Source: an uncultured Paracoccus sp. (GTDB lineage Bacteria > Pseudomonadota > Alphaproteobacteria > Rhodobacterales > Rhodobacteraceae). From it: a DNA stretch of 64,000 bases. The notes beneath the pieces are model-generated. The model was given only the letters and a program-made list of their open reading frames with translations, was not told the origin of the DNA and did not search any database. How positions within the stretch are numbered: the first letter of the stretch is position 1; every line of letters begins with the position of its first letter. The stretch covers positions 1-64,000 of the forward strand of contig NZ_CALMYP010000023.1 of the NCBI RefSeq assembly GCF_937873615.1, in the 5' to 3' direction. The position numbers were made by a program, and so were the translations under genes. Below are positions 16,791-59,947 of this stretch, piece by piece.

Positions 16791-18533
16791 TCAGCCTGCC
16801 GCGATTTCGGCCAGCAACGCGCCTTCGGCCAATTCCTCGCCGGGCTGTATGCGCTGACGGAGCACGCCCGCCTTTTCTGCGGTCAGCGTCATCTCCATCT
16901 TCATCGCCTCGATCACCGCGACGGGCTGACCCCCGGCCACGGTCTCGCCATCCGCGACCAGCCAGCGGGTCAATGTGCCCGCGACCGGGGCACGCAGACC
17001 ATCCGCCGCTTCCGTCGCGGGTTGTGCCAAGCCGATATGCGGTGCCGGAGCCGATGCGCCAAGCGCCCCCGCCAGCCGGCCAAGCGCGCCTGCCGACAGG
17101 CCCAGATCGCGGCGTTCCCCGTCGATCTCGACCGGCAGGCGCAGCACGCTGTCCTCCGCCTCGGGGACGCGCAGCGCGGCGTCCAGATCGGCGGCGAAAT
17201 CGGTCTCGATCCAGCGGGTATGGACGGTGAAGGGGGCGGTGCCGTTGAAGTCCGGCGCCTCGATCACGGCGCGGGCGAAGGGCAGGACCGAGGCCACGCC
17301 CTCGATGCGGAATTCGGCCAAGGCGCGGCGGGCGCGGGCAATGGCGGTTGCGCGATCAGGTCCGGTCACGATCAGCTTTGCCATCAGCGAATCGAAGGCC
17401 CCGGCGACGGTGCTGCCGGTCTCGACCCCGCTGTCCAGCCTTATGCCGGGACCGCCGGGGGGCGAGAAGCGGGTGATCCGGCCCGGCGTGGGCAGAAAGC
17501 CCCGGCCCGGATCCTCGGCATTTATTCGGAATTCGATGGCGTGACCCATGGGCGCGGGCATGGCGTCGATCTGCAGCGGAAGGCCTTCGGCAATGCGGAA
17601 CTGTTCGATCACCAGGTCGATGCCGGTTACGGCCTCGGTCACCGGATGTTCGACCTGTAACCTCGTATTGACCTCAAGAAAGCTCAGCATTCCATCGGCG
17701 CCGAGCAGGAATTCGACCGTGCCCGCGCCGGTATAGCCGGCCTCGGCGCAGATATCATGGGCAGAGGTGGCGATCCGTTCGGCCAGCTCGTCGGGCAGGA
17801 AGGGGGCCGGTGCCTCCTCGACCAGTTTCTGGTTGCGGCGCTGAAGGGAACAGTCGCGCAGGCCCACGACCACGACATTCCCATGCCGATCGGCCAGCAC
17901 CTGCGCCTCGATATGACGGGGCCGGTCGAGGAAGCGTTCGACATAGCAGGCGCCATTGCCGAAGGCGGTCCGGGCCTCGCTGGCGGCGGCGGCGAAAAGT
18001 TCGTCGATCTCGGCCGTCTCGCGGACCACGCGCATCCCCCTGCCCCCGCCCCCGGCCGAGGCCTTGATGGCAACGGGCAAGCCGTGTTCGGCCACGAAGG
18101 CGCGGATCTCGTCGCCACCCCTGACCGGGCCGTCGCTGCCGGGCACCAGCGGCGCGCCGACCTTGCGGGCGATTTCGCGTGCGGCGATCTTGTCGCCAAG
18201 GCGCGCGATGGCCTCGGGCGAGGGGCCGATCCAGATCAGCCCGGCATCGGCGACGGCCCGCGCGAATTCGGCACTTTCGGACAGGAAGCCATAGCCCGGA
18301 TGCACCGCATCCGCGCCGGCGCGGCGGGCGATATCCAGTAATGCGGGGATATTCAGATAGGTCTCGGCCGGGGTCTTGCCGGGCAGCGCATAAGCCGCAT
18401 CGGCAAGGCGCAGGTAAGGTGCATCCGCATCCGCATCGGCATAGACCGCCACCGCGCCGATGCCGTGATCCCGGCAGGCGCGGATCACCCGCAGCGCGAT
18501 TTCTCCGCGGTTGGCGATCAGGACGTTCTTCAT
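16791..18533 (-). CDS. Biotin carboxylase fused to biotin carrier domain
   Basis: 580 residues. Residues 1 to about 446 are a biotin carboxylase: [28 protein letters not shown]-grasp loop KASAGGGGRGMRVV, catalytic EVNTRLQVEHPVTE. Residues about 510-580 are a biotin carrier domain with EAMKMEM, biotinyl Lys545. Only about 65 residues separate the two, too few for the BT domain that acyl-CoA carboxylase alpha chains use to dock a beta subunit. Its start overlaps the pxpB-pxpC gene by 4 bp. It therefore probably partners that protein, which is homologous to the carboxyltransferase of urea carboxylase, rather than a CoA carboxylase. The substrate is unknown. Confidence 0.88.
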   Translation of the reverse strand: MKNVLIANRGEIALRVIRACRDHGIGAVAVYADADADAPYLRLADAAYALPGKTPAETYLNIPALLDIARRAGADAVHPGYGFLSESAEFARAVADAGLIWIGPSPEAIARLGDKIAAREIARKVGAPLVPGSDGPVRGGDEIRAFVAEHGLPVAIKASAGGGGRGMRVVRETAEIDELFAAAASEARTAFGNGACYVERFLDRPRHIEAQVLADRHGNVVVVGLRDCSLQRRNQKLVEEAPAPFLPDELAERIATSAHDICAEAGYTGAGTVEFLLGADGMLSFLEVNTRLQVEHPVTEAVTGIDLVIEQFRIAEGLPLQIDAMPAPMGHAIEFRINAEDPGRGFLPTPGRITRFSPPGGPGIRLDSGVETGSTVAGAFDSLMAKLIVTGPDRATAIARARRALAEFRIEGVASVLPFARAVIEAPDFNGTAPFTVHTRWIETDFAADLDAALRVPEAEDSVLRLPVEIDGERRDLGLSAGALGRLAGALGASAPAPHIGLAQPATEAADGLRAPVAGTLTRWLVADGETVAGGQPVAVIEAMKMEMTLTAEKAGVLRQRIQPGEELAEGALLAEIAAG

Positions 18534-20110
18534 CTGGATACCTCGGGTCGGTCAGGCGGGATTGCGGCGAAGGGAATGCGGGGGCGGAAACGCAGCCGGG
18601 CGCCGGGCGGAACCTGCGCGGCAAGGTCGAGGTGATCGGCGGCCACGGTGGCAATCACCGGATAGCCGCCGGTCAGCGGGTGATCGGGCAGGAACAGCAC
18701 CGGCTGGCCGGAATGCGGCACCTGGATCGCGCCGGTCATGGTCGCCTCGCTTGGCAATTCGCGGCTGTCATTGCGATGCAGGGGCGTGCCTTCCAGCCGC
18801 TTGCCGATCCGGCTGGATCGTGGCGTGACCAGCCAGTCCTGCGCGGTGAACAGCGCCAGAGTCTCGGGCGGAAACCAGTCGGCGCGCGGTCCGGGGATGA
18901 CATCGACGACGATCAGCGCGCCGGGCTTGGGCAGCAGCGGCATCGGCTCGACCGGCCCGAGCGCCTGCGCCGGGCCATTCGCCAGCCCGATCCAGCCGCC
19001 CGCGCGCAGCGCCTCCGGCCCGATATGGGCCAGCGTATCGGTGGCGGCGCTGCCCAGAACCGGGGTCACGTCAAAACCGCCACGCGCGCCGAGATAGCTG
19101 TAGCAGCCATTGCGGGGCGCGCCGATGGCGATCTCGTCACCGGCATCGACGGGGATGGGGCAATGGGTGGCGAAGCCTGGGCCGCCATTGACCGTGATCT
19201 GCCGGTCGGCACCGGTCACGGCAAGGGTGCAGACCCGGCTCGCACGCAGTTTCAGCGGCCCGGCCCCGATCTCGACCGCTGCCGTGCCAGCGGGATTGCC
19301 AAGCAGCCGGTTCAGCGCCCGGAACGCCCCCATATCCGCCGCACCGGATGCCGCGACCCCTTGCGCCAGTTGCGACAGCCGCCCGGCATCCTGAAACAGC
19401 GCCGGAAAAGGGGCCGAGACGATGTCCAGCCTTGCCTCTGGCGCGGCTGCGTCCGGTGCAGGGCTGGCCGGACGGGGCGCACTGAGGTTCCGGCCAGTAT
19501 GGGGGACGAAGCGCACCAAATCGCCGGGCGCGATCCGTGCCGGCGGGCTGCGCGACAGGTCCCACATCGGCATCGGCGTCGTGCCGATGATCTGCCAGCC
19601 GCCGGGGCTTTGCTGGGGATAGACGCCGCTGAATTCGCCCGCCAACGCCACGGATCCCGCCGGGATCGCCGTGCGCGGGCTTTGTCGGCGCGGCACCGCC
19701 AGCACCGGATCTCCGCCGGTCAGGTAACAGAAGCCGGGCGCGAAGCCGGTGAAGGCCGCCCGCCACGGGGTATCGGCATGGCGCCGGATCACCTCGGCCT
19801 CCGAGAGCCCGGTCAGCGCGGCAACCTCGGCCAGATCCTGACCGTCATAGATGACCGGGATGTCGACCTCGCGACCGCCGCCCTCGGGCCGGGCCGAAAG
19901 ATCGCGCCCGGCGATCTCTGCGGCCAGCCGCTCTGCCGTGGTCAAATGGCGGTCGAAGGTCACCGCCAGCGTGCGCGCCGCCGGGACCAGTTCGATCACA
20001 CCGGGGGGCAGATCGGCACCGAGGCTCGCAAACAGCGCCAGCACCGCGTCGAGATCCGCCAGTTCGACCAGCAGGGCCGTATCGCCGGCGGGCAGGAAGC
20101 GGGGGGTCAT
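18530..20110 (-). CDS. Fused PxpB-PxpC (AHS1-AHS2) protein
   Basis: 526 residues. Residues 1 to about 205 are the AHS1/KipI (PxpB) domain ([38 protein letters not shown]). Residues about 225-526 are the AHS2/KipA (PxpC) domain ([36 protein letters not shown]). In most bacteria these are separate 5-oxoprolinase subunits; the same domains form the carboxyltransferase half of urea carboxylase. Overlaps pxpA by 4 bp upstream and the biotin carboxylase gene by 4 bp downstream. Either an ATP-dependent 5-oxoprolinase part or the carboxyltransferase of a split biotin enzyme. Confidence 0.88.
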
Positions 20111-20859
20111 GGGGCGATGGGGGCAAGCGGGATGCCCTCGGCATCGAAAAGCTCGCGAATCCGCCGGGCCATCAGCACAGCGCCGGGGCTGTCGCCATGG
20201 ACGCAGATCGATTCTGCGTCGACGCGGATGTCCTGCCCGTCCACGGCGCGGATGGTGCCCTCTCGGGCGAAGCGCAACATGCGGCGGGCGACCTCCTCGG
20301 GGTCGTGCAGAACCGCGCCCGGCGACCGGCGCGAGACCAATTGGCCGTCGGGTTGATAGCCACGGTCGGCAAAGGCCTCGCAGATGACCCGCAACCCGGC
20401 CTTGCGGGCAAGGCCTACGATGGGCGATCCGGCAAGCGCCATCATCGGCAGGCCGGGGTCCCAGGCCTTGATCGCGTCGATGACGGCCAAGGCCTGATCG
20501 CCGCCCTGGGCGATGGTATTATAGAGCGCGCCATGCGGCTTGACATAGTGCACCGCGCTGCCCGCCGCCCGCGCCAGCCCGTCGAGCGCGCCGATCTGAT
20601 AGATCACATCCGCCGTCAGTTCCCGCGCCGGGATGTCCATCGGCCGGCGCCCGAAGCCGGCAAGGTCGCGATAGCCGACATGCGCGCCCACCGCGATCTC
20701 GCGCGCCGCCGCCAGCCGCAGCGTATCGAGGATGCCCGCCGGATCGCCGGCATGAAAGCCGCAGGCGATATTGGCCGAGGTGACGATCTCCAGCATGGCG
20801 GCATCGTCGCCCATCGCCCAGGCGGCGAAGCTTTCGCCCATGTCGCTGTTCAGATCCAT
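20107..20859 (-). CDS. pxpA: LamB/YcsF protein, 5-oxoprolinase subunit A
   Basis: 250 residues from the ATG at 20859 (GGGGAA five bases upstream); this start gives the family N-terminus [11 protein letters not shown]. Further family motifs are [28 protein letters not shown] and [10 protein letters not shown]. PxpA works with PxpB and PxpC to hydrolyse 5-oxoproline to glutamate with ATP. It overlaps the fused pxpB-pxpC gene by 4 bp and lies 37 bp after cpdB, so all are probably one transcript. Confidence 0.92.
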
Positions 20860-28482: not shown

Positions 28483-29901
28483 TCAGTCTGCCGCGACCCG
28501 ATGCGACAGCGCGGCCAGCCCTTCACGGACCATCGCAAAGCGGTTCAGGCGGCGTTCGGCCTGCGCCGCCTGCGACGGGGTGACGGGAACGGGTTCCGGC
28601 ACCGGGGGCACCGGTTGGCCATCCGCCGCCAAGGCCATATGCACGAGGCCAAGCGCCGTGCTTTCCACCTCGACCGCGCGGCCCATCGGGTGCCTGAGAA
28701 GCCCGGCCAGAAAGCCCAGCAGGTAATCGTTCCGCGCCAGCCCGCCATCGACGGAAAGCGCGCGGATCGGCTGCAATGCGTCGATGGCCCCGATCGCCTC
28801 GGCCGCGCGCAGGGCCACGCCTTCCAGCAGCGCCTGCATCAGGTCGGCGGGGCCGTGATCCAGGGTCAGCCCGAACCAGCTGCCGCGCGCCTGTCGGTCC
28901 CAATGCGGGCAGGCCAGACCGGCAAGGGCGGGCAGGAAGACCAGCCCCCGGTCGATGGCGGGCGCGGCGTCGAAACGGGCGATCTCGGCATACTCGCTGA
29001 ACAGGCCCAGCGATTTCGCCCAATCCAGCGCCGCCGCCGCCGAATAGACCGCCCCGTCGAGTGCATGCTGTGGTGCCTCGCCGGGCATCTGCCAGGCGAC
29101 GGTCGGCAGGGGGCCGGGCGTTTCGGGCCGGATCAGCGCGCCGGTCAGGCATTGCACGAAGGCGCCGGTGCCGAAGGTCACCTTCGCGGCCCCCGGGCTG
29201 CGGCAACCGTGACCGTAAAGCGCCGCCTGCTGATCGGTGATGCTGGCGCCAAGCCGCGCGCCATTGGGCAACCGCCCCAGATCGCCCGCCGTCGGCGTGA
29301 TCTCGGGCAGGCAATCGGGTGGAATGCCGAAGATCTCGCAAAGTGCGGGGTCCCAGGCGCCGGTCTCGATATTCATCAGTGAGGTGCGCGAGGCGGTGGC
29401 GATATCGGTCTGGAAACGCCCGGTCAGCCGGTCTCGGAAGAAGGCATCGGTGGTGCCGAGCCGCAGCCGCCCCTGCCGGGCAAGGCCGGCGGCCTCGGGG
29501 CAGTTCCGCAGGATCCAGCCCAGTTTCGTGGCCGAGAAATAGGGATCGAGCGGCAGGCCCGCGCGGGCCATGACCTCGGACCCTGCCCCCTCGCGGTCGA
29601 GCCGGGCGGTTTCCGGCGCGGTGCGGTCGTCCTGCCAGACGATGACCGGGCTGACGGGCCGCCCGTCGCGCGCATCCCAGCCGAGGCAGCTTTCGCCCTG
29701 ATTGGCGAGCGCGACCAGATCGGCCTCATGGTCAAGCGCCGCGTGAAGATTTGCCAGCAGTTCCTTGGGATCGTGCTCGACATGGCCGGGGGCGGGCAGG
29801 ATCTGGCGATGGGCGCGCTGCATGACCGGGGCCAGCCTGCCGTCCCGATACAGAAGCGCCCGGGTCGAGGTGGTGCCCTGGTCGATGGCGAGGACCTTCA
29901 T
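28483..29901 (-). CDS. FGGY kinase, glycerol-kinase-like
   Basis: 472 residues with both FGGY kinase domains (IDQGTTSTRALLY at the N-terminus, FGTGAFV and LSVDGGLARNDYLL in the second half). Aligned by eye with E. coli GlpK, the glycerol pocket keeps Glu70, Trp89, Tyr121, Asp223 and Phe248. The residue equivalent to Arg83 is Gly69 (NQGES instead of NQRET). That arginine contacts glycerol in GlpK, so a related polyol may be the real substrate. Its start overlaps the upstream flavoprotein gene by 4 bp. Confidence 0.85.
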   Translation of the reverse strand: MKVLAIDQGTTSTRALLYRDGRLAPVMQRAHRQILPAPGHVEHDPKELLANLHAALDHEADLVALANQGESCLGWDARDGRPVSPVIVWQDDRTAPETARLDREGAGSEVMARAGLPLDPYFSATKLGWILRNCPEAAGLARQGRLRLGTTDAFFRDRLTGRFQTDIATASRTSLMNIETGAWDPALCEIFGIPPDCLPEITPTAGDLGRLPNGARLGASITDQQAALYGHGCRSPGAAKVTFGTGAFVQCLTGALIRPETPGPLPTVAWQMPGEAPQHALDGAVYSAAAALDWAKSLGLFSEYAEIARFDAAPAIDRGLVFLPALAGLACPHWDRQARGSWFGLTLDHGPADLMQALLEGVALRAAEAIGAIDALQPIRALSVDGGLARNDYLLGFLAGLLRHPMGRAVEVESTALGLVHMALAADGQPVPPVPEPVPVTPSQAAQAERRLNRFAMVREGLAALSHRVAAD

Positions 29902-31106
29902 GCGGTCTCCTCCAGCGTCAGGATCAGCGGGTCGGGCAGCAGGTTTTTGGGCAAAGGCATGGTGATCCGCCGTTCCGGCAGGGCGTTAATCCTGTGGCTG
30001 GCGATGACCATGGGGCCCTGATGCAGCGACAGGATCCCGTGCACGGGCCGGGTGACGCGCAGCTGAATCTGTCCGTGCCGGCCCGGACCGTCGGTGAAGA
30101 TCACCTGCGGCAGCGCATAGCGGATCAGATCGCTGCGGATGGTCAGCGGCACGCCATGTGAAGGATCGGGCAGATCGCCGCGCAGTGCGGCATGGATGGC
30201 ATGGGCGGCGCGGCGGCCCTCGGACCAGCAGGCACCGGCGGTTTCAACCGGGCGCAGCAGGTTGCCAGCGGCGAAATAGCCCGGTCTGGCGCAGCGCCCG
30301 AAACTGTCGATGATCGGCCCGGTCGAGTGCGGATCGACCCCCTCCCCGGCCAGCAAGGCCGCTTCCGAGCGGAAGGAACCGGTCAGCAGCACGCCGTCGC
30401 AATCCAGATGCGTCTTGCCTTGCGGCCCGGCAAGGGTCACGCCGCTGACCCGCTCTCGGCCATGGATCGCGGCAATCTCGGTCTTCAGATGCAGCGGCAC
30501 GCCCAACAGGCGCGGCAACAGGCCCGAGGGGCGGCGGGCGAGGATGCGCGGCCCCGGCTCGATCATCGCCACCGGGCGGATGCCGGCCTGTCGGCAGGTC
30601 AATAGGGCCGAGAAGCTGACCAGTTCCGTCCCGAGGATCACGGGTCGGCAAAACGGTATCTGGTGGTTCAGATGCACGAGGCCCTGAAGCGCGCCGGTCG
30701 GGATCACGCCGCCGGGCTTCTGGCCGCCGATCAGGCGCTGCACCCGGCTGGATTCGCGCGTGCCGGTGGCCAGCAGAACGGCGCGGGCCTGCAGGTGGAA
30801 GACCCCTTCGGGGCCGGTCAGTTCCAGCGCCGGGCCGTCCTGCAAGGCGGTTGCGGTGGTGTTGCACAGGATGCTGGCCCCCGTCGCCTCTGCCGCTGCC
30901 GCCAGCCGCGCGGCATAGGCCTGCCCGCCAAGGATGCGGTGGAATTCGCGCATTCCGAAGGGGGAATGCCCGCAATGGCGGGGGATGCCGCCGGGCACCG
31001 GCTCGCGCTCGATCACGGTCACGCGGCCTGCGCCCAGCCGGCCAAGCTCTGCGGCGGCGGCCAGTCCGGCGGGGCCGGCGCCGATGATGGCGATGTCAGT
31101 CTCCAT
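29898..31106 (-). CDS. FAD/NAD(P) oxidoreductase, GlpB/HcnB-like
   Basis: 402 residues. FAD-binding motif DIAIIGAGPAGLAAAAEL at residues 4-21, conserved PGGIPRHCGHSPFGMREF, second nucleotide motif LLATGTRESSR, and a FAD C-terminal motif (GYFAAGNLLRPVETAGACWSEG). It resembles the pyridine-nucleotide-disulfide type subunit found beside GlpA-like dehydrogenases and opine oxidases. It overlaps its upstream neighbour by 11 bp, so the two probably form one enzyme. The last 60 residues are of a type I do not recognise. Confidence 0.8.
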   Translation of the reverse strand: METDIAIIGAGPAGLAAAAELGRLGAGRVTVIEREPVPGGIPRHCGHSPFGMREFHRILGGQAYAARLAAAAEATGASILCNTTATALQDGPALELTGPEGVFHLQARAVLLATGTRESSRVQRLIGGQKPGGVIPTGALQGLVHLNHQIPFCRPVILGTELVSFSALLTCRQAGIRPVAMIEPGPRILARRPSGLLPRLLGVPLHLKTEIAAIHGRERVSGVTLAGPQGKTHLDCDGVLLTGSFRSEAALLAGEGVDPHSTGPIIDSFGRCARPGYFAAGNLLRPVETAGACWSEGRRAAHAIHAALRGDLPDPSHGVPLTIRSDLIRYALPQVIFTDGPGRHGQIQLRVTRPVHGILSLHQGPMVIASHRINALPERRITMPLPKNLLPDPLILTLEETA

Positions 31107-32475
31107 CCTTATCCCCGCAGGTCATGGGCTGGGTGAAGCGTGCTTCGGTCAGTTTCGCCAGCGCCGCCGTGCAGCCGAAACCCTGGCAGCGGCCCATGGT
31201 GACGCGGGTGCGCCGTTTCAGCCCGGCGATCGAGCGGGCGGGGGCCGGGGCGTTCAGCGCCGCCTCGATTTCGCGCCGGGTCACCAGCTCGCAATGGCAA
31301 AGGATGCCGCCATTGCCCGCCGCCTGCCAGTCGCGTGGCCCCGCCTGCGCAAGCATCGGCATCTGCGGCCAGTGCTGCGGCTCTCTCGGCGCCCGACCCA
31401 CCAGCCCCGCCACATGGCGCGCGATCCCAAGCGCCGCCGACAGCCCGGTCGAGCGGATGCCCCCCACCGTCACCAGCCCCCGCGCCAGATCGGCGCGGAT
31501 GCGATAGCCCTTGTCCTCGGTCGCGGGACGCAACCCGGCATAGGCTGCCGTCACCTCCTGCGCGGCCAGTCCGGGCAGGATGGATTCGCCGGTCTCGCGC
31601 AGGTTGCGCAGCGTGTCGGGCGAAAGCGAGGCATCCTCTCGGTCCTCCTGTTCCTCGGCGGTGGGGCCGACCAGAAGGTTGCCGAAGGCGGTGCGGCAGA
31701 CGACGATGCCCTTGGTGATCTTCGTGGGCACCGGCAGCAGGATATGCCGCGCCAACCCCGCCGCCGGCTTGTCATAGACGATGAACTGACCCTTTCGGGG
31801 ACGGATCCGGAAGAAGCTCTCGCCGGTCAGCAGCCTTTCGACATGGTCGCCCCAGAGGCCCGCCGCGTTGACGACCAACCCGGCCTCGACGGGACCGGCG
31901 GCAGTGGTCAGATGCCAGCGCCCGCCCCTGCGCTCGGCACGGGTCAGTTCGGCCCGGCAGCGCAGTTCGGCACCATGGGCGATGGCCTGATAGAGATAGG
32001 CATGTGCCGCCGACCACGGGTCGATCAGCGCCTCGCGCGGCACCCGGAAACCGGCGCGGACGCCCGGCGCAAGGGCCGGTTCGGCGGCCAGCAGCGCGGC
32101 GCGGTCCATGGGCTCGATATCCTCGACCCCGTTGCGGCGGGCCTGTGCCATCAGATCGGGCAGCGCCGCCTCCTGCCCGGCATCCCAGGCGAGGACGAGG
32201 GCGCCGCAGCGGTCCAGCGGCAGGTTCAGACGCTGGTGAATGTCCAGATATTCCGCATGACCGGCACGGATGCAGTCGAGTTCCAGCGAGCCCTCGGGCG
32301 CGTCGAAGCCGGTATGCAGGATGGCGCTGTTGCCCTTGGAGGCCCCGTCCAGCACGTCATGCGCCTTTTCCAGCAGCACCACCCGCGCCCCGTCGATGGC
32401 GAAACGGCGGGCAAGGGCGCAGCCGACGATCCCGGCGCCGACGATTGCCACATCGTAACCTGCCACCTCAGCCAT
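31096..32475 (-). CDS. GlpA-like FAD dehydrogenase with BFD [2Fe-2S] domain
   Basis: 459 residues from the ATG at 32475 (MAEVAGYDVAIVGAG). A DAO-type flavoprotein domain (residues 6 to about 365, with FAD motif VAIVGAGIVGCALARR) is followed by a BFD-like [2Fe-2S] domain with C-H-C (LCHCELV) and GRCQGFGC cysteines. This architecture matches the GlpA subunit of glycerol-3-phosphate dehydrogenase and related 2-hydroxyacid oxidases. First gene of the minus-strand arm of the catabolic island, divergent from the DeoR regulator. ATGs at 32508 and 32538 are upstream alternatives. Confidence 0.85.
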   Translation of the reverse strand: MAEVAGYDVAIVGAGIVGCALARRFAIDGARVVLLEKAHDVLDGASKGNSAILHTGFDAPEGSLELDCIRAGHAEYLDIHQRLNLPLDRCGALVLAWDAGQEAALPDLMAQARRNGVEDIEPMDRAALLAAEPALAPGVRAGFRVPREALIDPWSAAHAYLYQAIAHGAELRCRAELTRAERRGGRWHLTTAAGPVEAGLVVNAAGLWGDHVERLLTGESFFRIRPRKGQFIVYDKPAAGLARHILLPVPTKITKGIVVCRTAFGNLLVGPTAEEQEDREDASLSPDTLRNLRETGESILPGLAAQEVTAAYAGLRPATEDKGYRIRADLARGLVTVGGIRSTGLSAALGIARHVAGLVGRAPREPQHWPQMPMLAQAGPRDWQAAGNGGILCHCELVTRREIEAALNAPAPARSIAGLKRRTRVTMGRCQGFGCTAALAKLTEARFTQPMTCGDKDGD

Positions 32476-32635
32476 TCCGACCCCATCAGTTGCCGCATAA
32501 CTATACATAATTTGACCGAACGGGCAATCGTCAAGCATAAAACTGTGGTTTCAGGCGCAAATTCTTGCCGGATAATACAAATATTCGTTGACATGGGCGC
32601 GCGCGCCGGATTGGCTTCAGGTCGAGGGGATAACG
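32476..32635. promoter_or_regulatory. Divergent promoter region of the DeoR-controlled island
   Basis: A 160-bp AT-rich gap between divergent starts, the natural place for the DeoR operator serving both arms. TTGACA at 32588-32593 could be a -35 for the plus strand but has no matching -10 at standard spacing. I could not fix an operator. Confidence 0.5.
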
Positions 32636-33394
32636 ATGAAACCGCGTGAGAGACGCTTGCAGATCGAAACCATGATCCGAAGCGAAGGCTCGGCCAGTGT
32701 CGAGGACCTGGCTGCGCATTTCGAGGTCTCGACCGAAACCATCCGCCGCGATCTGGCCCGCCTAGCCGGCGCCGGGCGGGTGCTGAAAGTGCATGGCGGC
32801 GCGCGCAGCGCCCGGCTTCTGGTCGAGCCGAGCATGGATATCCGCGCCGCGCAGGCCAGCGAGGAGAAGGTGCAGATCGGCCGGCGTCTGGCCGGCGAGA
32901 TCGAGCCGGGGGCCACGCTGTTCATCGACACCGGCTCGACCACCCTGGCGGCGGTGCCGGCACTGGCGGCGATTGTCGGGTTGACCGTCATCACCAATTC
33001 CTGCCGGTTGGCCGATGCGCTGGCGCGGGCGGGATCGGACGCCTCGGTGCATCTGCTGGGCGGAAGTTACGTTGCCGGCAATGCGCAGACGGTCGGGCCG
33101 ACCGCGCTTGGCCAGATCGCCGAATATCAGGCCGATCACTGCGTGCTGACCGTCGCGGCCTTCTCGGCCGAGGTCGGGGCCATGGATGCCAGCCATGACG
33201 AGGCGCAGATCGCGCGCGCCATGGCCGCCAATGCGCAGAACCTGATCGTGCTGGCCGACAGCAGCAAGCTGGACCGTCGCGCCGCCTTCACTGTCTGCCC
33301 GACGGCACGGATAGATCTGCTGATCACCGACGACGCGATCCCCGGGCCGATGCGGGGCCAGCTGGCCGCCTGCGGGCTGCGGGTCTTGTGCTGA
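32636..33394 (+). CDS. DeoR/GlpR-family repressor
   Basis: 252 residues from the ATG at 32636 (GAGGGGAT upstream). An N-terminal DeoR helix-turn-helix (VEDLAAHFEVSTETIRRDL, residues about 22-40) is followed by the DeoRC sensor domain with LFIDTGSTTLAAV and VLADSSKLDRRA. Such repressors sense phosphorylated sugars or polyols. Its place between the kinase/flavoprotein arm and the TRAP/ligase arm suggests it controls both. Confidence 0.92.
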   Translation: MKPRERRLQIETMIRSEGSASVEDLAAHFEVSTETIRRDLARLAGAGRVLKVHGGARSARLLVEPSMDIRAAQASEEKVQIGRRLAGEIEPGATLFIDTGSTTLAAVPALAAIVGLTVITNSCRLADALARAGSDASVHLLGGSYVAGNAQTVGPTALGQIAEYQADHCVLTVAAFSAEVGAMDASHDEAQIARAMAANAQNLIVLADSSKLDRRAAFTVCPTARIDLLITDDAIPGPMRGQLAACGLRVLC

Positions 33395-33436
33395 GGGCCG
33401 GGAAGAAAACAACGGGACAGGACGAAAGGGAAACCG

Positions 33437-33949
33437 ATGCCGAAGCTGATCCGCGGATATGTCCGCAGCGTCGACCGTATCAGCGACTGGGCCGGCTGGC
33501 TGGCGGCCTCGCTGATCTTCGTCATGGTGGCGACGCTGCTGCTGGATGCGGTGACGCGCAATGTGCTGAACATTCCCGTTCATTGGGCGATCGAGCTGAC
33601 CCAGTTCACGCTGGCCGCCTATTACTTCCTGGGCGGGCCGTTCACGTTGAAGAACAACGATCATGTGCGCATGGACCTGCTTTACGCCTCGCTGTCGGAG
33701 CGCGGCAAGGCGAAGCTGGATCTGGTCACCATCTGGTGCCTGATCTTCTATCTGGTCGTCATGCTGATGGGCTCGATCAGCAGCCTGAAATACGCCATCT
33801 CCACCGATGAACGGCGGTTTTCGATGTGGAACCCCTCGGTCATTCCGATCAAGGCGCTGATGGTCGTCTGCCTGGTGCTGATGCTGCTGCAGGCCTTCTC
33901 GCTTGTCTTCAAGCATATTGCCACGCTGCGCGGGGAACCCATCGCATGA
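33437..33949 (+). CDS. dctQ: TRAP transporter small permease (DctQ)
   Basis: 170 residues with four membrane helices (for example WLAASLIFVMVATLLLDAV and LVTIWCLIFYLVVMLM). The family element GGPFTLKNNDHVRMDLLY is present. Together with DctM it forms the membrane part of a Na+-driven TRAP importer. ATG overlaps nothing upstream (42-bp gap after deoR); its stop overlaps dctM by 4 bp. Confidence 0.92.
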   Translation: MPKLIRGYVRSVDRISDWAGWLAASLIFVMVATLLLDAVTRNVLNIPVHWAIELTQFTLAAYYFLGGPFTLKNNDHVRMDLLYASLSERGKAKLDLVTIWCLIFYLVVMLMGSISSLKYAISTDERRFSMWNPSVIPIKALMVVCLVLMLLQAFSLVFKHIATLRGEPIA

Positions 33950-35283
33950 GCTATGAATCCATCGCCCTGCTGATGTTCGCCTCCATGGTGCTGCTGCTGG
34001 TCAGCGGGCAGCGGGTCTTTGCCGCCATCGGTTTCGTCGCCTCCGGCGCGGCGCTGCTGCTTTACGGGCAGGGCGCCATCGAGCTGCCGTTCAACCAGGT
34101 GTTCAAGCTGTTCAACTGGTATGCGATGCTGACCCTGCCGATGTTCATCTATATGGGCTATGTGCTGTCGGAATCGGGCATCGCCGAAGACCTTTACAAG
34201 ATGCTGCATGTCTGGTTCGGCCGGGTGCGCGGTGGGCTGGCGGTGGGGACGATCCTGCTCATGGTCATCATCTCGGCGATGAACGGGCTGTCGGTCGCCG
34301 GCATGGCCATCGGCGCCACCATCGCCCTGCCCGAGATGCTGCGGCGCGGTTACGACAAGATCCTGATCTCGGGCGTGGTGCAGGGGGGATCCTCGCTTGG
34401 CATCCTGATCCCGCCTTCGGTGGTGATGGTGCTTTACGGCATGATCGCGCGCCAGCCGGTGTCGAAACTGTGGTTCGCGGGGCTGGTGCCCGGCCTGATC
34501 ATGGCGGCGATGTTCGTGGCCTATATCCTGATCCGCGCGCGCATGAATCCCGCCCTCGCCCCGGTGGTGGACGAGGAGGAACTGAACATGCCCTTTGCCG
34601 AGAAGCTGGCCCTTGCCCGCGCCGGCATCATCCCCTTCCTGATCTTCTTCCTGATGACCGGGCTTTTCGTGATGGGCTATACCTCGCTCGTGGAAAGCTC
34701 GGCCGTGGGGGCCACGGCGGCGACGCTGGCGGCACTGCTGAAGGGGCGGTTCACCTGGCGGCTGATCAAGGAGACCTCGCTGAAGACGCTGTCTGTCAGT
34801 TGCATGTTCCTGTGGCTGATCCTGGCGGCGCTGGCTTTCGGGGCGGTCTTCGACGGGCTGGGCGCCGTGCGCGCCATCGAGAACCTGTTCCTGAACACCT
34901 GGGATCTCGGACCCTGGCAGGTGCTGATCATGATGCAGCTCAGCTTCATCCTGATGGGTATCTTTCTGGACGACACGGCGATGCTGGTCATTGTCGCGCC
35001 GCTTTACATTCCGCTGGTGGCCTCGCTGGATCTGGGCTTCGACAACCAGCTGATCTGGTTCGGCGTGCTTTACACCATCACCTGCCAGATCGCCTATATC
35101 ACCCCGCCCTTCGGCTATAATCTCTTCCTGATGCGCTCTCTGGCGCCGAAGGAGATCACGCTTGTCGATATCTACCGCTCGATCTGGCCCTTCGCGCTGA
35201 TGATGGTGATCACCATCGTGCTGGTGATGATCTGGCCGCAGATCGCGCTGTGGCTGCCCGAACATATGAGCGTCCGAGGTTAG
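33946..35283 (+). CDS. dctM: TRAP transporter large permease (DctM)
   Basis: 445 residues, about twelve membrane segments, with the family motifs GLSVAGMAIGATIALPEM, GSSLGILIPPSVVMVLYG and ITPPFGYNLFLM. This is the substrate-translocating subunit. The start ATG overlaps the dctQ stop (ATGA). Substrate is not visible from sequence; the downstream ligase and dehydrogenases suggest an amino alcohol or related compound. Confidence 0.93.
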   Translation: MSYESIALLMFASMVLLLVSGQRVFAAIGFVASGAALLLYGQGAIELPFNQVFKLFNWYAMLTLPMFIYMGYVLSESGIAEDLYKMLHVWFGRVRGGLAVGTILLMVIISAMNGLSVAGMAIGATIALPEMLRRGYDKILISGVVQGGSSLGILIPPSVVMVLYGMIARQPVSKLWFAGLVPGLIMAAMFVAYILIRARMNPALAPVVDEEELNMPFAEKLALARAGIIPFLIFFLMTGLFVMGYTSLVESSAVGATAATLAALLKGRFTWRLIKETSLKTLSVSCMFLWLILAALAFGAVFDGLGAVRAIENLFLNTWDLGPWQVLIMMQLSFILMGIFLDDTAMLVIVAPLYIPLVASLDLGFDNQLIWFGVLYTITCQIAYITPPFGYNLFLMRSLAPKEITLVDIYRSIWPFALMMVITIVLVMIWPQIALWLPEHMSVRG

Positions 35284-35340
35284 CGAGCGATCCCTGAAAC
35301 CAAGCCCCGCCAAGAGGGTCCACCCAACCGAGAGGATACC

Positions 35341-36417
35341 ATGACCAAGAAACTGATCACCCCGTCGGAAAAGATCCTGTCCAGCCGCCGCAAGTTCCTG
35401 CAGACGGCGGGGATCGGGGCTGCGGCCTCGACCCTCGCCGCGCCTGCCGTGCTGGCGCAGAGCGGCCCGATCAAATGGCGGCTGCAGACCTATTCCGGCG
35501 CGCCGCTTGGCGCCCATGTCATCAAGCCGCAGATCGACGCCTTCAACGCGGCGGCCAATGGCGAGATGGAGATCGAGCTTTACTATGCCGACCAGCTCGT
35601 TCCCACCGCCGACCTGTTCCGGGCGCTGCAGAACGGCACCATCGACGCCGTTCAGTCGGACGAGGCGACCATGGCCTCGCCGGTCGATATCTCGGTCTTC
35701 GGCGGCTATTTCCCCTTCGCCACCCGCTACAGCCTCGATGTGGCGGCGCTGTTCCAGTATTACGGCCTGAAAGAGATCTGGCAGGAGGCCTATGACGAGG
35801 TCGACAATGTCACCTGGCTGTCGACCGGGGCCTGGGACCCGCTGCATATCTTCACCGTGGACAAGCCGATCCGCAGCCTTGCCGACATGAAGGGGCTGCG
35901 CGTCTTCGGGGTGCCGACGGCGGGCAAGTTCCTGTCGCGCTATGGCCTGATCCCGGTCACCATTCCCTGGGACAACGTGGAAGTCGCCATGCAGACCGGC
36001 GAACTCGACGGCGTCGCCTGGTGCGGCTTTACCGAGGCCTATGAGGTCGGCTGGGCCGACGTCTGCAACTATGCGCTGACGAACTCGGTCACCGGCGCCT
36101 GGTTCGGCAGCTATTTCGCCAATACCGCCAGCTGGGAAAAGGTCCCGCCGCATCTGCAGGAACTGTTCCGCATCTCCATCGACCAGTCCCATTACTACCG
36201 CAATGTCTGGTATTGGGGCGGCGAGGCCAAGCTGCGCGTCGAGGGCGAGAAGGTGGAACTGACCAGCCTGCCGGACGAGGAATGGGCGCAGGTCGTCAAG
36301 GATGCCGAAGGCTTCTGGGACGAGGTTGCCGGTTCCTCGGACCGCGCCGGCCGCGTCGTGCAGGCCTTCAAGGATTACGCCGCCAATATGGAAAAGGCCG
36401 GCTATCCTTACCGCTAA
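35341..36417 (+). CDS. dctP: TRAP substrate-binding protein (DctP), Tat-exported
   Basis: 358 residues. The leader has a twin-arginine motif (SSRRKFLQTAG) and ends near AAPAVLAQ. The mature protein is a DctP-type periplasmic receptor (IKWRLQTYSGAPLGAHVIKPQIDAF, FRALQNGTIDAVQSDE, GLRVFGVPTAGKF). No characteristic residue tells the ligand. A 57-bp gap separates it from dctM. Confidence 0.9.
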   Translation: MTKKLITPSEKILSSRRKFLQTAGIGAAASTLAAPAVLAQSGPIKWRLQTYSGAPLGAHVIKPQIDAFNAAANGEMEIELYYADQLVPTADLFRALQNGTIDAVQSDEATMASPVDISVFGGYFPFATRYSLDVAALFQYYGLKEIWQEAYDEVDNVTWLSTGAWDPLHIFTVDKPIRSLADMKGLRVFGVPTAGKFLSRYGLIPVTIPWDNVEVAMQTGELDGVAWCGFTEAYEVGWADVCNYALTNSVTGAWFGSYFANTASWEKVPPHLQELFRISIDQSHYYRNVWYWGGEAKLRVEGEKVELTSLPDEEWAQVVKDAEGFWDEVAGSSDRAGRVVQAFKDYAANMEKAGYPYR

Positions 36418-36425
36418 GACCCCTT

Positions 36426-36450
36426 GCCGGGCGCGGCCCTCGTGCCCGGC
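36426..36450 (+). other. Hairpin after dctP
   Basis: A 7-bp GC stem (GCCGGGC 36426-36432 / GCCCGGC 36444-36450) with an 11-nt loop in the gap before the ligase gene. It probably protects the 3' end of dctP mRNA or partly terminates, giving more binding protein than downstream enzymes. Confidence 0.4.
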
Positions 36451-36471
36451 CTTCCCGATCCGGAGGATATC

Positions 36472-37833
36472 ATGCCCGCCAATATGACGCTCGACAGCCT
36501 GAAAGCCGCCTGGGAGGCGGGCGAGATCGACACCGTGGCCGTCGCGCTGATCGACATGCAGGGGCGCATGATGGGCAAGCGCTTCCATGTCCAGCATTTC
36601 CTGGATGCCCATGACGAGACCCATTGCTGCAATTACCTGCTGGCCACGGATTACGAGATGTTCACCGTCCCCGGCTACAAGGCCAGCAGTTGGGAAAAAG
36701 GCTATGGCGATTACGTCATGCGCCCCGATCTTTCGACCCTGCGCCGCCTGCCCTGGGCGCCGGGCACGGCGCTCTGCATGGTCGATCTGCTGGACCACCA
36801 CACCCATGAACCCGTCCCCCATGCGCCGCGCAATGTGCTGGCGCGTCAGGTCGCCCGCGCCCGCGCCATGGGGTTCGAGCCGATGATGGCGACCGAGCTT
36901 GAGTTCTTCATGTTCGAGGAAAGCTTCAAGGACCTGTTCGATACCGGCTATCGCGATCCGACGCCGAGCGCGCGTTACAATGTCGATTACGCCCTGAGCG
37001 AGACCTCGGGCGACGAGGTGGTGATGCGCGCGCTGCGCAACGATCTTTACGCCGCCGGTGTGCCGGTCGAGTGCAGCAAGGGCGAGGCCGAGCGCGGCCA
37101 GCACGAGATCAATGCGCGCTATTCCGACGCGCTGGATACGGCGGACATGCATATCCTGATCAAGGCGGCGACGAAGGATATCGCGCGCCGGGCCGGGCGG
37201 TCAGCCACCTTCATGGCGAAATACCATCACGACAAGGTCGGCAGTTCCTCGCATGTCCATCAGTCGCTGGCGAAGGACGGGGCGAATGTCTTCGTCGATG
37301 CGACCGACCCGCTCGGCATGTCGGCGCTGATGAAATCCTATGTCGCCGGGCAACTTGCCCATGCCGGGGCGATCACGCTGTTCCTTGCGCCCAATATCAA
37401 CAGCTACAAGCGCTTCGTTGCCGGCACCTTCGCCCCCACCCGCGCGGTCTGGAGCGTCGACAACCGCACCGCCGGCTTCCGCCTCTGTGGCGAGAATACC
37501 AAGGGCGTGCGCATCGAATGCCGCATCGGCGGGGCCGATCTGAACCCCTATATGGCCTGCGCGGCGCTGCTGGCCGCAGGCCTCGACGGGATCGAGAAGG
37601 GGATGGAGCTTGCCCCCGCCTTCTCGGGCGATCTCTACCAGTCGAAGGATGCGCCCGAGGTGCCGCGCACGCTTGGCGCGGCGGCGGCTGCGGCGATGGG
37701 GTCAGGGATGCTGAAATCCGCCTTTGGCGAGGATGTCGTTGCCCACTACCACCGCGCCGCGCTTTGGGAGATAGAGGAACAGAATCGCGTCGTCTCCGAC
37801 TGGGAAACCGCACGCGGATTCGAGCGGGCTTGA
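36472..37833 (+). CDS. Glutamine-synthetase-like gamma-glutamylamide ligase
   Basis: 453 residues; ATG at 36472 with GGAGG at 36462-36466. A GS-fold enzyme of the PuuA/IpuC/GlnT group rather than housekeeping GlnA. Visible motifs are ATELEFFMFE, GEAERGQHEIN (metal-binding glutamates), SSSHVHQSL, NSYKRF and VRIECRIGGADLNPYMA. These enzymes join glutamate to an amine (putrescine, isopropylamine, ethanolamine) with ATP. The adjacent aldehyde and alcohol dehydrogenases suggest the amine carries a hydroxyl group. Confidence 0.87.
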   Translation: MPANMTLDSLKAAWEAGEIDTVAVALIDMQGRMMGKRFHVQHFLDAHDETHCCNYLLATDYEMFTVPGYKASSWEKGYGDYVMRPDLSTLRRLPWAPGTALCMVDLLDHHTHEPVPHAPRNVLARQVARARAMGFEPMMATELEFFMFEESFKDLFDTGYRDPTPSARYNVDYALSETSGDEVVMRALRNDLYAAGVPVECSKGEAERGQHEINARYSDALDTADMHILIKAATKDIARRAGRSATFMAKYHHDKVGSSSHVHQSLAKDGANVFVDATDPLGMSALMKSYVAGQLAHAGAITLFLAPNINSYKRFVAGTFAPTRAVWSVDNRTAGFRLCGENTKGVRIECRIGGADLNPYMACAALLAAGLDGIEKGMELAPAFSGDLYQSKDAPEVPRTLGAAAAAAMGSGMLKSAFGEDVVAHYHRAALWEIEEQNRVVSDWETARGFERA

Positions 37834-37850
37834 AGGAACGGAAAATCGAG

Positions 37851-39239
37851 ATGTCGGGAAAGATCCAGCTGGTATCGCCGGTCGATGGCGAGGTTTATGT
37901 GACCCGCGACGTGCTGTCGCCCAAGGATGCGCGCGCGGCTGTCGCCCGCGCCCACGCGGCGCAGCCGGACTGGGCGGCGCGGCCTTTGGATGAACGCATC
38001 CGGCTGGTCATGGCCGGCGTCGAGGCGCTGATCGCCATGAACGACCGGATCGTGCCGGAACTGGCCCGGATGATGGGCCGCCCGGTGCGCTATGGCGGCG
38101 AGATGGGCGGGGTGCGCGAACGTGCCGAATACATGGCGAAGATCGCCGCGGAAACCCTCGCCCCGCAGGTGGTTGAAGATAGCGGCACCTTCCGCCGCGA
38201 ATTGCGCCGGGTGCCGGTGGGCGTGGTCTTCATCATCGCGCCCTGGAACTATCCCTTCCTGACCGCAATCAACGGCATCGTGCCGGCGCTGATCGCCGGC
38301 AATGCCGTGGTGCTGAAACATGCCAGCCAGACCCTGCTGGCGGGCGAACGTCTGGCCGAGGCGATGCACAAGGCCGGTGTGCCCGAGGATATCTTCCAGA
38401 ACCTCGTTCTGGATCATGCCACCACCGAGGCGCTGATCGCCGAGCGCAATTTCGGCTTCGTGAATTTCACCGGCTCGGTCGGCGGCGGTCAGGCGATCGA
38501 GCGCGCGGCGGCGGGCGGCTTTACCGGCACCGGGCTGGAACTTGGCGGCAAGGATCCGGGCTATGTCGCCGAGGATGCCGATCTGGAAGCGGCGGTGAAC
38601 GGGCTGATGGACGGGGCGATGTTCAACTCGGGTCAGTGCTGCTGCGGGATCGAGCGGATCTATGTCCATGACAGCCTGTATGACGGTTTCGTCGCCAGGG
38701 CGGCGGATTGGGTGCGGGCGCTGAAGCTGGGCGATCCGACCGATCCCGAGACCACGATGGGGCCGATGGCCAATCTGCGTTTCGCGAAGCTGGTGCGCGA
38801 ACAGGTGGCCGAGGCCGTGGCTGCGGGCGCGCGCCCGCTGATCGAGGCAAGCGAGTTTCCGGCCGACGATGGCGGCGCCTATCTGGCCCCGCAGGTGCTG
38901 GTCGATGTGCGCCATGACATGCGCGTCATGCGCGAGGAAAGTTTCGGCCCCGTGGTCGGCATCATGCCGGTCAGGGACGATGCGGAAGCCATCGCGCTGA
39001 TGAACGATTGCGCCTATGGGCTGACCGCCTCGATCTGGACCGCCGATTCCGACCGCGCCGCCGCGATTGGCGAGAAGCTGGAAACCGGCACCGTCTTCAT
39101 GAACCGCTGCGATTACCTCGACCCGGCGCTGTGCTGGACCGGGGTCAAGGATACCGGGCGCGGGGCCAGCCTGTCGGCGCTTGGCTTCCATGCCGTGACC
39201 CGGCCCAAATCCTTCCATCTGAAAAAGGTGACAGCATGA
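37851..39239 (+). CDS. NAD(P)-dependent aldehyde dehydrogenase
   Basis: 462 residues. Aldehyde dehydrogenase catalytic residues are in place: Asn133 (APWNYP), Glu230 (GLELGGKDP) and the nucleophile Cys264 in GQCCCG. The C-terminal EESFGPVVGI motif is present. The ATG at 37851 follows GAAGGAACGG. In context it would oxidise the aldehyde made by the next gene's alcohol dehydrogenase to the acid. Overlaps that gene by 4 bp. Confidence 0.92.
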   Translation: MSGKIQLVSPVDGEVYVTRDVLSPKDARAAVARAHAAQPDWAARPLDERIRLVMAGVEALIAMNDRIVPELARMMGRPVRYGGEMGGVRERAEYMAKIAAETLAPQVVEDSGTFRRELRRVPVGVVFIIAPWNYPFLTAINGIVPALIAGNAVVLKHASQTLLAGERLAEAMHKAGVPEDIFQNLVLDHATTEALIAERNFGFVNFTGSVGGGQAIERAAAGGFTGTGLELGGKDPGYVAEDADLEAAVNGLMDGAMFNSGQCCCGIERIYVHDSLYDGFVARAADWVRALKLGDPTDPETTMGPMANLRFAKLVREQVAEAVAAGARPLIEASEFPADDGGAYLAPQVLVDVRHDMRVMREESFGPVVGIMPVRDDAEAIALMNDCAYGLTASIWTADSDRAAAIGEKLETGTVFMNRCDYLDPALCWTGVKDTGRGASLSALGFHAVTRPKSFHLKKVTA

Positions 39240-40393
39240 CGCTTCGCGCCAACTGGTCCTATCCGACCGCGATCAAATTCGGTGCCGGCCGCATCGCCGA
39301 ACTGCCCGATCAATGCCGCGCGGCGGGGATCGCGAAGCCGCTTCTGGTCACCGACCGCGCCCTTGCCGCCCTGCCGATCACCGCGCAGGTGCTGGACCTG
39401 CTGGATGCGGCGGGGCTGGGCCGGGCGGTGTTCTCGGATGTCGATCCGAACCCGAACGAGGGCAATATGGAAGCCGGCCTTGCCGCCTATCGCAAGGGCG
39501 GCCATGACGGGGTGATCTGCTTCGGCGGCGGCTCGGCGCTGGATCTGGGCAAGATGATCGCGCTGATGATCGACCAGCCGGTCTCGGTCTGGGAGTTGGA
39601 GGATATCGGCGACTGGTGGACCCGCGCCAACCCCGACAGCATCGCCCCGATCATCGCCGTGCCGACCACCGCCGGCACGGGATCGGAGGTCGGGCGCGCC
39701 GGGGTGCTGACCAACAGCGCCAGCCACAAGAAGAAGATCATCTTCCACCCGAAGCTTCTGCCCACGGTGACGATCTGTGACCCGGAACTGACCGTCGGAA
39801 TGCCGCGCGCCATCACCGCCGGCACCGGCATGGATGCTTTCGCGCATTGTCTGGAAGCCTATTCCAGCCCGCATTACCACCCGATGAGCCAGGGCATCGC
39901 GCTGGAAGGTCTGCGGCTGGTGAACGAGAACCTGCCGCGCGCCCATGCCGATCCGAACGACCTTGAGGCACGGGCGAACATGATGAGCGCCGCCGCCATG
40001 GGCGCGGTCGCCTTCCAGAAGGGTCTGGGCGCGATCCACAGCCTCAGCCACCCGGTCGGTGCGGTTTACGGCACCCATCACGGCACAACCAATGCCGTGG
40101 TGATGCCGATAGTGCTGCAATTCAACCGCCCCGCGATCGAGGAGCGCATCGCGCGGGCCGCCGATTATCTGGGCATCAAGGGCGGCTTCGACGGCTTCTA
40201 TGCCCGCGTGCTGGACCTGCGGGCCGAGCTGGCGATTCCTCAGAACCTTGCCGTGATGGGGGTCGAGGCGTCGCGGCTGGACGAGTTGACCGAGATGGCG
40301 CTGGAAGATCCCTCTTGCGGGGGCAATCCGGTCGAGATGACGCGCGAGAATACCCGCGTGCTTTTCGACGCGGCCATGCGCGATCCCGCGTAA
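39236..40393 (+). CDS. Iron-containing alcohol dehydrogenase
   Basis: 385 residues, group III (Fe-ADH) fold. The NAD motif GGGSALDLGK (97-106) and the four expected metal ligands Asp200, His204, His268 and His282 are all present at FucO-like spacing. It would oxidise a primary alcohol to the aldehyde used by the overlapping aldehyde dehydrogenase gene. Last gene of the plus-strand arm; an 11-bp hairpin follows. Confidence 0.92.
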   Translation: MTLRANWSYPTAIKFGAGRIAELPDQCRAAGIAKPLLVTDRALAALPITAQVLDLLDAAGLGRAVFSDVDPNPNEGNMEAGLAAYRKGGHDGVICFGGGSALDLGKMIALMIDQPVSVWELEDIGDWWTRANPDSIAPIIAVPTTAGTGSEVGRAGVLTNSASHKKKIIFHPKLLPTVTICDPELTVGMPRAITAGTGMDAFAHCLEAYSSPHYHPMSQGIALEGLRLVNENLPRAHADPNDLEARANMMSAAAMGAVAFQKGLGAIHSLSHPVGAVYGTHHGTTNAVVMPIVLQFNRPAIEERIARAADYLGIKGGFDGFYARVLDLRAELAIPQNLAVMGVEASRLDELTEMALEDPSCGGNPVEMTRENTRVLFDAAMRDPA

Positions 40394-57123: not shown

Positions 57124-57127
57124 CGGT

Positions 57128-58168: not shown

Positions 58169-58169
58169 G

Positions 58170-59447: not shown

Positions 59448-59947
59448 TCCACGTCCCCCAGCAGGTTCTCGGGCCGGCCATCGGTGGTGCCGGTCAGCAT
59501 TCCGATGACACGCAGAAGCGCGGCAAGGGCCAGCGTCGCCAGCAGCAACAGCACGCTGGCATGGGCATAGTTCATCGGCATGGCCATGGCGGGCGAGGTC
59601 TGCATCGCCCCGATCTGGGTGAAGCGCAAGGCCGGAGGGATCAGCATGACGGCAAAGACCAGCACCAGCACGGCACTGACAAGGCGCAGCAGCCAGGGCC
59701 AGCGGCCGGGCAGGCTTTCGCTGACCAGATCGACATTGACCAGATCGCCCGAAACCAGCGCCAGCCCGGTGCCGAAGCCGGCCAGATAAAGCAGCGCGAA
59801 ACGCGTCAATTCCTCGGTCCAGACCGGGGAACTGCCGACGAAGCTGCGCCCGACCACCTGCACGGTGACGGCGCCGATCAGGATCAGGAAGGATATCCCG
59901 ACCCCGAGGCGCAGCACCACGCGCATCGCTTGTGTTAACCCGGACAT
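59444..59947 (-). CDS. dctQ: TRAP transporter small permease (DctQ)
   Basis: 167 residues with four membrane helices (GISFLILIGAVTVQVVGRSF, LLRLVSAVLVLVFAVMLIPP, then a C-terminal helix). The WTEELTRFALLYLAGFG motif is typical of DctQ subunits. A stable hairpin in the 67-bp gap before it separates its translation from that of dctP. Confidence 0.92.
   Translation of the reverse strand: MSGLTQAMRVVLRLGVGISFLILIGAVTVQVVGRSFVGSSPVWTEELTRFALLYLAGFGTGLALVSGDLVNVDLVSESLPGRWPWLLRLVSAVLVLVFAVMLIPPALRFTQIGAMQTSPAMAMPMNYAHASVLLLLATLALAALLRVIGMLTGTTDGRPENLLGDVE

Follow-up and report, generated by a model that had tools for sequence, protein, structure and literature searches.

A ten-gene island in two divergent operons

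The subject of this work is a ten-gene island at positions 28483-40393 of a 64,000-nucleotide window (the whole stretch of DNA that was analysed) from an uncultured Paracoccus sp. Open reading frame (ORF) calls together with Pfam matches revealed ten intact ORFs arranged as two divergent operons around the gene of a DeoR-family regulator, in agreement with the layout drawn in an earlier note on this DNA, all genes of which are ORFs in place. Within each arm, adjacent genes overlap by 4-11 bases or are separated by gaps of 17-57 bases. The closest named records are also from Paracoccus (L051, which is Paracoccus isoporae, and L052; L and G numbers denote the loci and genomes compared).

The operon on the minus strand encodes an FGGY kinase of a GlpK-like subfamily bearing the motif NQGESCL (28483..29901, Pfam FGGY_N/C, hereafter KIN), a FAD/NAD(P)-binding flavoprotein (29898..31106, Pyr_redox_2, FL2), and a flavoprotein with a C-terminal BFD [2Fe-2S] domain (31096..32475 with an alternative start at 32508, DAO and Fer2_BFD, FL1), of which FL2 is the presumed electron partner. 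On the plus strand, the regulator gene (32636..33394, HTH_DeoR/DeoRC) is followed by the genes of a tripartite ATP-independent periplasmic (TRAP) importer, comprising an EtoV-like small permease (33437..33949, DctQ), an EtoW-like large permease (33946..35283, DctM) and a solute-binding protein of the EtoX family (35341..36417, DctP). Then come a glutamine synthetase (GS)-like ligase (36472..37833), an aldehyde dehydrogenase (ALDH; 37851..39239, Aldedh) and an iron alcohol dehydrogenase (Fe-ADH; 39236..40393, Fe-ADH). Between the operons lies a palindrome of the type ATTGACCGWWCGGTCAAT (32511..32528, 23.0 bits), a putative DeoR operator. A scan for promoters and terminators returned no more matches than expected by chance.

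The downstream genes of the plus-strand arm point clearly to ethanolamine. When compared with solved structures, the island EtoX matched 4uab/4xf5 with E 1.7e-136 (the next at 2.3e-17), and the GS-like protein, for which Gln-synt_C was the sole Pfam domain matched, was closest to 5dm3 (E 6.1e-174) and 11zs (4.3e-155), with the third at 2.2e-49. The latter is probably an ethanolamine gamma-glutamylase (ETAGA), and position and neighbours suggest that the ALDH is GAADDH-like and the Fe-ADH GETADH-like. According to PMC12410723, 4UAB is Csal_0678 with ethanolamine and its acidic platform residue is Glu220; PMC4646407 likewise describes ethanolamine binding by Csal_0678, without the usual TRAP arginine. 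The glutamate of a T-E-x-Y motif in the island protein aligns with 4uab and is kept in 19 aligned EtoX rows; judged from its position, it would correspond to Glu220 of Csal_0678. By homology and gene order, the TRAP, GS-like, ALDH and Fe-ADH genes are the known gamma-glutamylation operon for ethanolamine with a changed regulator. The earlier statement that no described pathway holds all these parts is not supported for these genes, as they match a published operon.

A conserved core with its own importer and palindrome

The named loci used for comparison are the best 80 of at least 581 relatives matched by two short FL1 patterns and, being the best-scoring ones, they favour close relatives. 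FL2 accompanies FL1 in all 80. Gene content was counted in the 57 loci with at least 5.5 kilobases (kb) on each side of FL1, the other 23 being excluded for short flanks. KIN was found in 56/57 and EtoX in 46/57, the latter comprising 31 loci without GS or EutB, 10 with GS and five with EutB. Among the 11 loci lacking the EtoX TRAP, four have EutH, one (L110) an ethanolamine permease (TIGR00908, 564.7 bits vs. a cut-off of 381.75) and six neither. The GS-ALDH-FeADH trio is complete in eight of the 10 GS loci; L112 gave no ALDH match, and the GS of L122 is only 46% identical. Pfam confirmed EutH, EutB and EutC on L111, L096 and L125, and in G088 EutB/EutC adjoin KIN-FL-DeoR, with a different TRAP in the place of EtoX. 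On the tree of type 2 EtoX (defined below), GS needs nine changes and EutB five, gains and losses together, which indicates that both systems came and went repeatedly; the labels of this tree include loci with short flanks, so that an absence of GS or EutB may in those cases reflect a truncated contig. Taken together, the gene neighbourhoods indicate that the core has been repeatedly joined to two unrelated ethanolamine-degrading systems, and it occurs with three unrelated ethanolamine-type transporters. The role proposed for the core rests chiefly on these associations. In the Pseudomonas locus L111 (6039-7667), and also in L116, L119 and L127, the EutH gene that neighbours KIN-FL has a DUF1937 protein (PF09152) as its partner.

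In loci of the same family as the window, the core has the order KIN-FL2-FL1 / DeoR-DctQ-DctM-EtoX (no DeoR match in L031 and L033), and the window, L025 and L026 are the only ones in which GS-ALDH-FeADH lies downstream of EtoX. In the 12 family genomes with adjacent FL1 and EtoX, GS (E <= 1e-90) was linked in three, elsewhere in seven, and not found in two (G162 and G138). The unlinked GS stretches L131-L137 gave no TRAP match, and L132, L133 and L137 carry RpiR and GGAH; this would be consistent with a transfer of the importer into the DeoR cluster, bearing in mind that L134 is truncated at the end of its contig. In L028 (genome G162, an assembly of about 320 contigs), the TRAP-KIN-FL core is present, with no match to GS (E <= 1e-90), EutB or canonical GlpD. 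Of 397 genomes surveyed across the phylum, five, counting that of the window, have FL1 at E <= 1e-120. The earlier note had separated a polyol arm from a TRAP-gamma-glutamylation arm. This partition is not borne out, since in relatives the TRAP stays with the kinase and flavoprotein genes and GS is present in only 10/57 loci; its view that the two operons belong together is upheld by the conserved linkage and by the conserved palindrome between them.

The importer itself is of a distinct type. EtoX was found in 107/198 genomes of the family and FL1 (E <= 1e-60) in 14/198. Identity to the island EtoX splits the genomes into 15 at 74-100% and 92 at <=65%. FL1 occurs in 13 of the 15 with EtoX >=74%, in none of the 92 with another EtoX, and in one genome without EtoX (G088). 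FL1 and EtoX lie less than 5 kb apart in 12 of these 13, and about 715 kb apart in G003. G023, the only genome in the sample that belongs to the same genus, lacks both. Phylogenetic analysis of 95 EtoX sequences, in which several named loci carry EtoX identical to those of family genomes and so form identical rows, placed type 1 (24 rows) apart from type 2 (71 rows; support 100/100), the latter including the island protein. KIN or FL1 was present in the stretches of 68/71 type 2 rows and 0/24 type 1 rows, and RpiR in 19/24 type 1 loci, which were hand-picked from the EtoX match list and are not a random sample. The three type 2 rows without KIN or FL1 are L035, L037 and L038. The contig of L038 begins inside a DeoR gene; in L035, EtoX is located in an RpiR/GGAH/GS operon, and the kinase of the same genome lies elsewhere with its NQGES motif kept. 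Independent occurrence of the two arms, which the earlier note would have counted against their unity, is thus found in part: GS goes with a type 1 TRAP without the kinase and flavoproteins in 20/24 type 1 loci, but the island's TRAP subtype is seldom so arranged.

Type 2 EtoX retains the acidic platform glutamate, and 21 near-fixed positions (>=90% in each type) set it apart from type 1. Among these, 228, 230 and 235 are close to the platform residue, while 190 and 191 adjoin a Phe that probably stands in place of the TRAP arginine. The ligand of type 2 EtoX could be ethanolamine or some larger amino alcohol, and it could also accept both. If it serves another substrate or route, some of the ethanolamine uptake counted under gamma-glutamylation may be misassigned.

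The regulator scores below every listed NCBIfam DeoR-family cut-off (NF008154, the DeoR/GlpR family, 120.7 vs. 331 bits). The ATTGACCGWWCGGTCAAT palindrome between FL1 and DeoR exceeded the 95% null (5.7 bits) in 59/59 divergent intergenic regions and the 99% null (9.0 bits) in 58; these 59 regions were the training set of the model, and the fair test is the held-out run (25 trained, 34 tested), in which 33/34 exceeded the 95% null and 32/34 the 99% null, the corresponding figures for random windows drawn from these loci being 7.8% and 2.5%. The pattern TTGMCYGWWCRGKCAA with at most one mismatch has two matches in the window's own genome, the sole exact one in the island. In G088, an 18.9-bit palindrome lies about 120 bases upstream of the gene for the binding protein of the substitute TRAP. 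Scanning 29 further or special loci at >14 bits gave a palindrome in nine. Across 12 genomes, the one-mismatch pattern gave 44 matches (10 for the reversed control), four of them at the island (G000, G091, G141 and G138); the 40 elsewhere point to a wider regulon or else to a loose pattern. Control of the unlinked trios by DeoR was considered and rejected, as 7/8 stretches L131-L138 lack a palindrome above 14 bits and the 14.5-bit one in L136 lies inside the GS gene.

A proposed kinase-first route and its rivals

KIN is nearest to GlpK, scoring 349.8 bits with TIGR01311, under the cut-off of 590.35. The GlpK signature comprises Arg83, Glu84, Tyr135, Asp245 and Phe270, as given in PMC3245297. 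In KIN, Gly replaces Arg83 in 70/70 sequences (69 loci and the window), with Trp103 and Gln246 kept in all 70. Five other FGGY kinases from the same genomes, four of them canonical GlpK, have Arg at position 83. In a tree, a branch with support 92/100 separated 19 KIN from six other FGGY kinases. Canonical GlpK over the cut-off is present in 13/14 genomes with FL1, and canonical GlpD likewise in 13/14, and the idea that KIN-FL is the cell's only glycerol pathway was rejected on this ground. The invariant Gly83, the separate branch and the coexisting GlpK together indicate that KIN is a separate conserved subfamily. The loss of Arg83 beside a retained Glu84 would suit an ammonium group. By eye, an unlinked KIN with NQGESCL (L178, 7431-8825, genome G003) lies near a Dpp-type ATP-binding cassette (ABC) transporter and an AMP-binding synthetase, and Dpp-type ABC genes stand beside FL1-FL2-KIN in L099.

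Type 2 glycerol-3-phosphate oxidase comes closest to FL1, which is also related to GlpA, its scores being below the cut-offs in both cases (NF033460, 199.9 vs. 460 bits; TIGR03377, 132.3 vs. 552.8 bits); the four BFD Cys residues are kept in 81/81 sequences (80 loci and the window). Glycerol-3-phosphate oxidases and dehydrogenases have a known set of active-site residues, namely His, Lys, Arg and Ser, and those of FL1 align with 4x9m. In O-phosphoethanolamine the amine sits where glycerol 3-phosphate has its C2 hydroxyl, which makes an amine substrate possible. The solved relatives of FL2 are distant, the best by sequence being sarcosine oxidase alpha subunits (weak, E 2e-7). The description of both flavoproteins as GlpA/GlpB-like is thus fair for FL1, which is GlpA/GlpO-like with a BFD domain, but loose for FL2.

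We favour the reading, with a probability of roughly 0.5, that the island is a DeoR-controlled cluster for the utilisation of ethanolamine-type amino alcohols, built of a conserved kinase-first core and a gamma-glutamylation add-on. The type 2 EtoX TRAP would import a small 2-amino alcohol, KIN would phosphorylate its hydroxyl, and FL1-FL2 would oxidise the carbon next to the phosphorylated one, with electrons passing via the BFD iron-sulphur centre. O-phosphoethanolamine would then be converted to glycolaldehyde phosphate and ammonia, and serinol phosphate to dihydroxyacetone phosphate and ammonia. DeoR may sense the phosphorylated intermediate and repress both operons from one operator. The add-on, present here and in some relatives, would be the trio (GS-like ligase, Fe-ADH and ALDH) known from the gamma-glutamylation of ethanolamine. 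That KIN-FL1-FL2 in itself forms a third aerobic route, with the kinase step first, by which ethanolamine or serinol yields glycolaldehyde phosphate or dihydroxyacetone phosphate with ammonia, is a more doubtful proposal, and we put it forward only tentatively.

Several observations weigh against this reading. An ethanolamine-degrading KIN-FL1-FL2 would make the two other ethanolamine routes found beside it redundant. The four other signature residues of GlpK are kept in 70/70 KIN, and H54, K255, R316 and S342, as expected of glycerol-3-phosphate oxidases, in 81/81 FL1. FL1 has an HxG motif in common with both solved relatives aligned, the glycerophosphate oxidase 4x9m and 3dme, which we take to be alcohol-oxidising; a motif common with alcohol-oxidising relatives means that a C2 hydroxyl fits better than an amine. 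KIN is not adjacent in L105, and in L113 and L118 FL1-FL2 and DeoR, again with no adjacent KIN, stand beside PotD-type ABC genes. L113 also carries a GpdQ-like phosphodiesterase, and this whole arrangement fits glycerol 3-phosphate. The best solved relatives of the enzyme are 2zo9/2dxl (GpdQ), it is 46% identical to the phosphodiesterase of L103, and weaker relatives occur in L106 and L065. No ethanolamine transporter was recognised in the six of 57 loci that hold the core or FL1-FL2 with neither EtoX, EutH nor the permease. DeoR was matched in only 65/80 loci, and three of the four EutH loci lack a palindrome above 14 bits. Finally, the type 2 EtoX of G003 is located inside an RpiR/GGAH/GS operon, with KIN and FL1-FL2-DeoR elsewhere and apart.

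Alternatively, the cluster may salvage both halves of (glycero)phosphoethanolamine, which is close to the compound split into two parts proposed in the earlier note. This is the main rival, and we regard it as a distinctly possible explanation, though one we would give less credence than the amino-alcohol cluster. The TRAP would import ethanolamine for gamma-glutamylation or EutBC, KIN and FL1-FL2 would be a variant glycerol kinase and glycerol-3-phosphate dehydrogenase, and DeoR would sense glycerol 3-phosphate or similar. Besides the nearness of KIN to GlpK and of FL1 to GlpO/GlpA, with most substrate residues kept, the KIN-less L113 and L118 beside PotD-type ABC genes and the phosphodiesterases of L113 and L103, it would explain why no further enzyme was seen conserved, dihydroxyacetone phosphate needing no dedicated one, and G162 has the core with no match to canonical GlpD. 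However, the signature Arg83 is Gly in every KIN, the canonical GlpK and GlpD are each already at hand in 13 of the 14 FL1 genomes, and in 31/57 loci EtoX accompanies the core in the absence of both GS and EutB. The link of the cluster to ethanolamine is common to both explanations and well supported; the earlier note's suggestion in this respect has gained strong backing. The KIN-FL branch would act on ethanolamine, serinol or a related compound, or else on glycerol released from the headgroup that also supplies the ethanolamine.

A single amine-bearing diol such as 3-amino-1,2-propanediol, i.e., the one molecule with both groups of the earlier note, is an improbable substrate. Type 2 EtoX would import it, KIN would phosphorylate the primary hydroxyl and FL1 would oxidise the neighbouring secondary one, which would reconcile an amine-binding importer with the loss of Arg83 and an alcohol-type FL1. 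The product, however, would need further enzymes, and no additional gene was seen conserved in the clusters; moreover, we know of no abundant natural source of such diols. Accidental proximity, in the window's genome, of a glycerol-type and an ethanolamine operon that have nothing to do with each other would agree with the GS found elsewhere in seven and not at all in two of the 12 genomes mentioned above, but the order TRAP-DeoR-FL1-FL2-KIN and the conserved palindrome recur across many families, and with such conserved linkage in many genomes, chance neighbourhood is disfavoured as very unlikely and was rejected.

Comparison with known systems

The plus-strand arm has its published counterpart in the operon of Phaeobacter sp. 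MED193, which, according to PMC10132767, consists of RpiR, GGAH, EtoV, EtoW, EtoX, ETAGA, GAADDH and GETADH. Phosphorylethanolamine is reported there to induce its proteins, EtoX to bind ethanolamine with a dissociation constant of 7.9 uM, and the genes to have close relatives in Chromohalobacter salexigens and Agrobacterium tumefaciens. The island has the counterparts of EtoV-W-X, ETAGA, GAADDH and GETADH in identical order. The island differs in having DeoR instead of RpiR as the regulator, an EtoX of a different group and the added KIN-FL1-FL2 operon, and in lacking GGAH (gamma-glutamylglycine amidohydrolase). A GGAH search of the window's own genome gave a best match only 34% identical, on another contig and outside the island. 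With no GGAH in the island, a cyclotransferase and 5-oxoprolinase route for gamma-glutamyl products is conceivable. At 16791-20859 of the window, we noted genes resembling, by eye, those of a biotin carboxylase, KipI/KipA and LamB/YcsF, i.e., a 5-oxoprolinase-type set. A second TRAP cluster occupies 52378-61004 on the minus strand, with proteins which, by eye and from their starts, resemble those of hexuronate-type catabolism (mannonate dehydratase, a fructuronate/mannitol-type dehydrogenase, a sugar kinase and an alcohol dehydrogenase).

The ammonia-lyase route of EutBC is related to the core through other genomes, where EutB/EutC, EutH and the TIGR00908 permease adjoin KIN-FL, whereas the island has no EutB/EutC, EutH or permease. 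In the window's own genome no EutB match was obtained, EutH and the permease not having been searched there. With glycerol catabolism by GlpK and GlpA/GlpD/GlpO, the minus-strand operon has in common the combination of a kinase and a flavin oxidoreductase, KIN being near GlpK and FL1 near type 2 GlpO/GlpA; unlike these enzymes, the island proteins fall below the curated cut-offs, have lost Arg83 and are linked to ethanolamine-type transporters.

No description of the core of type 2 TRAP, KIN, FL1-FL2 and DeoR was found in the open-access literature as judged from the titles listed, which is limited evidence. If a third route indeed exists, it would comprise an amino-alcohol kinase of the FGGY family followed by a flavin/iron-sulphur oxidoreductase acting on amino-alcohol phosphates, and it would span several families of Alpha- and Gammaproteobacteria as well as Paraburkholderia, in most cases accompanied by DeoR and by a TRAP subtype peculiar to it. 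The question is directly testable, given a kinase that differs at a single diagnostic residue and that is tied, like the flavoprotein pair, to transporters of the ethanolamine type. In Pseudomonas and Erwinia, amino alcohols are degraded by a kinase and then a phospho-lyase. The route proposed here would resemble that pathway in its kinase-first attack on the amino alcohol, and would differ from it in that the island kinase is followed by a flavoprotein pair in place of the phospho-lyase.

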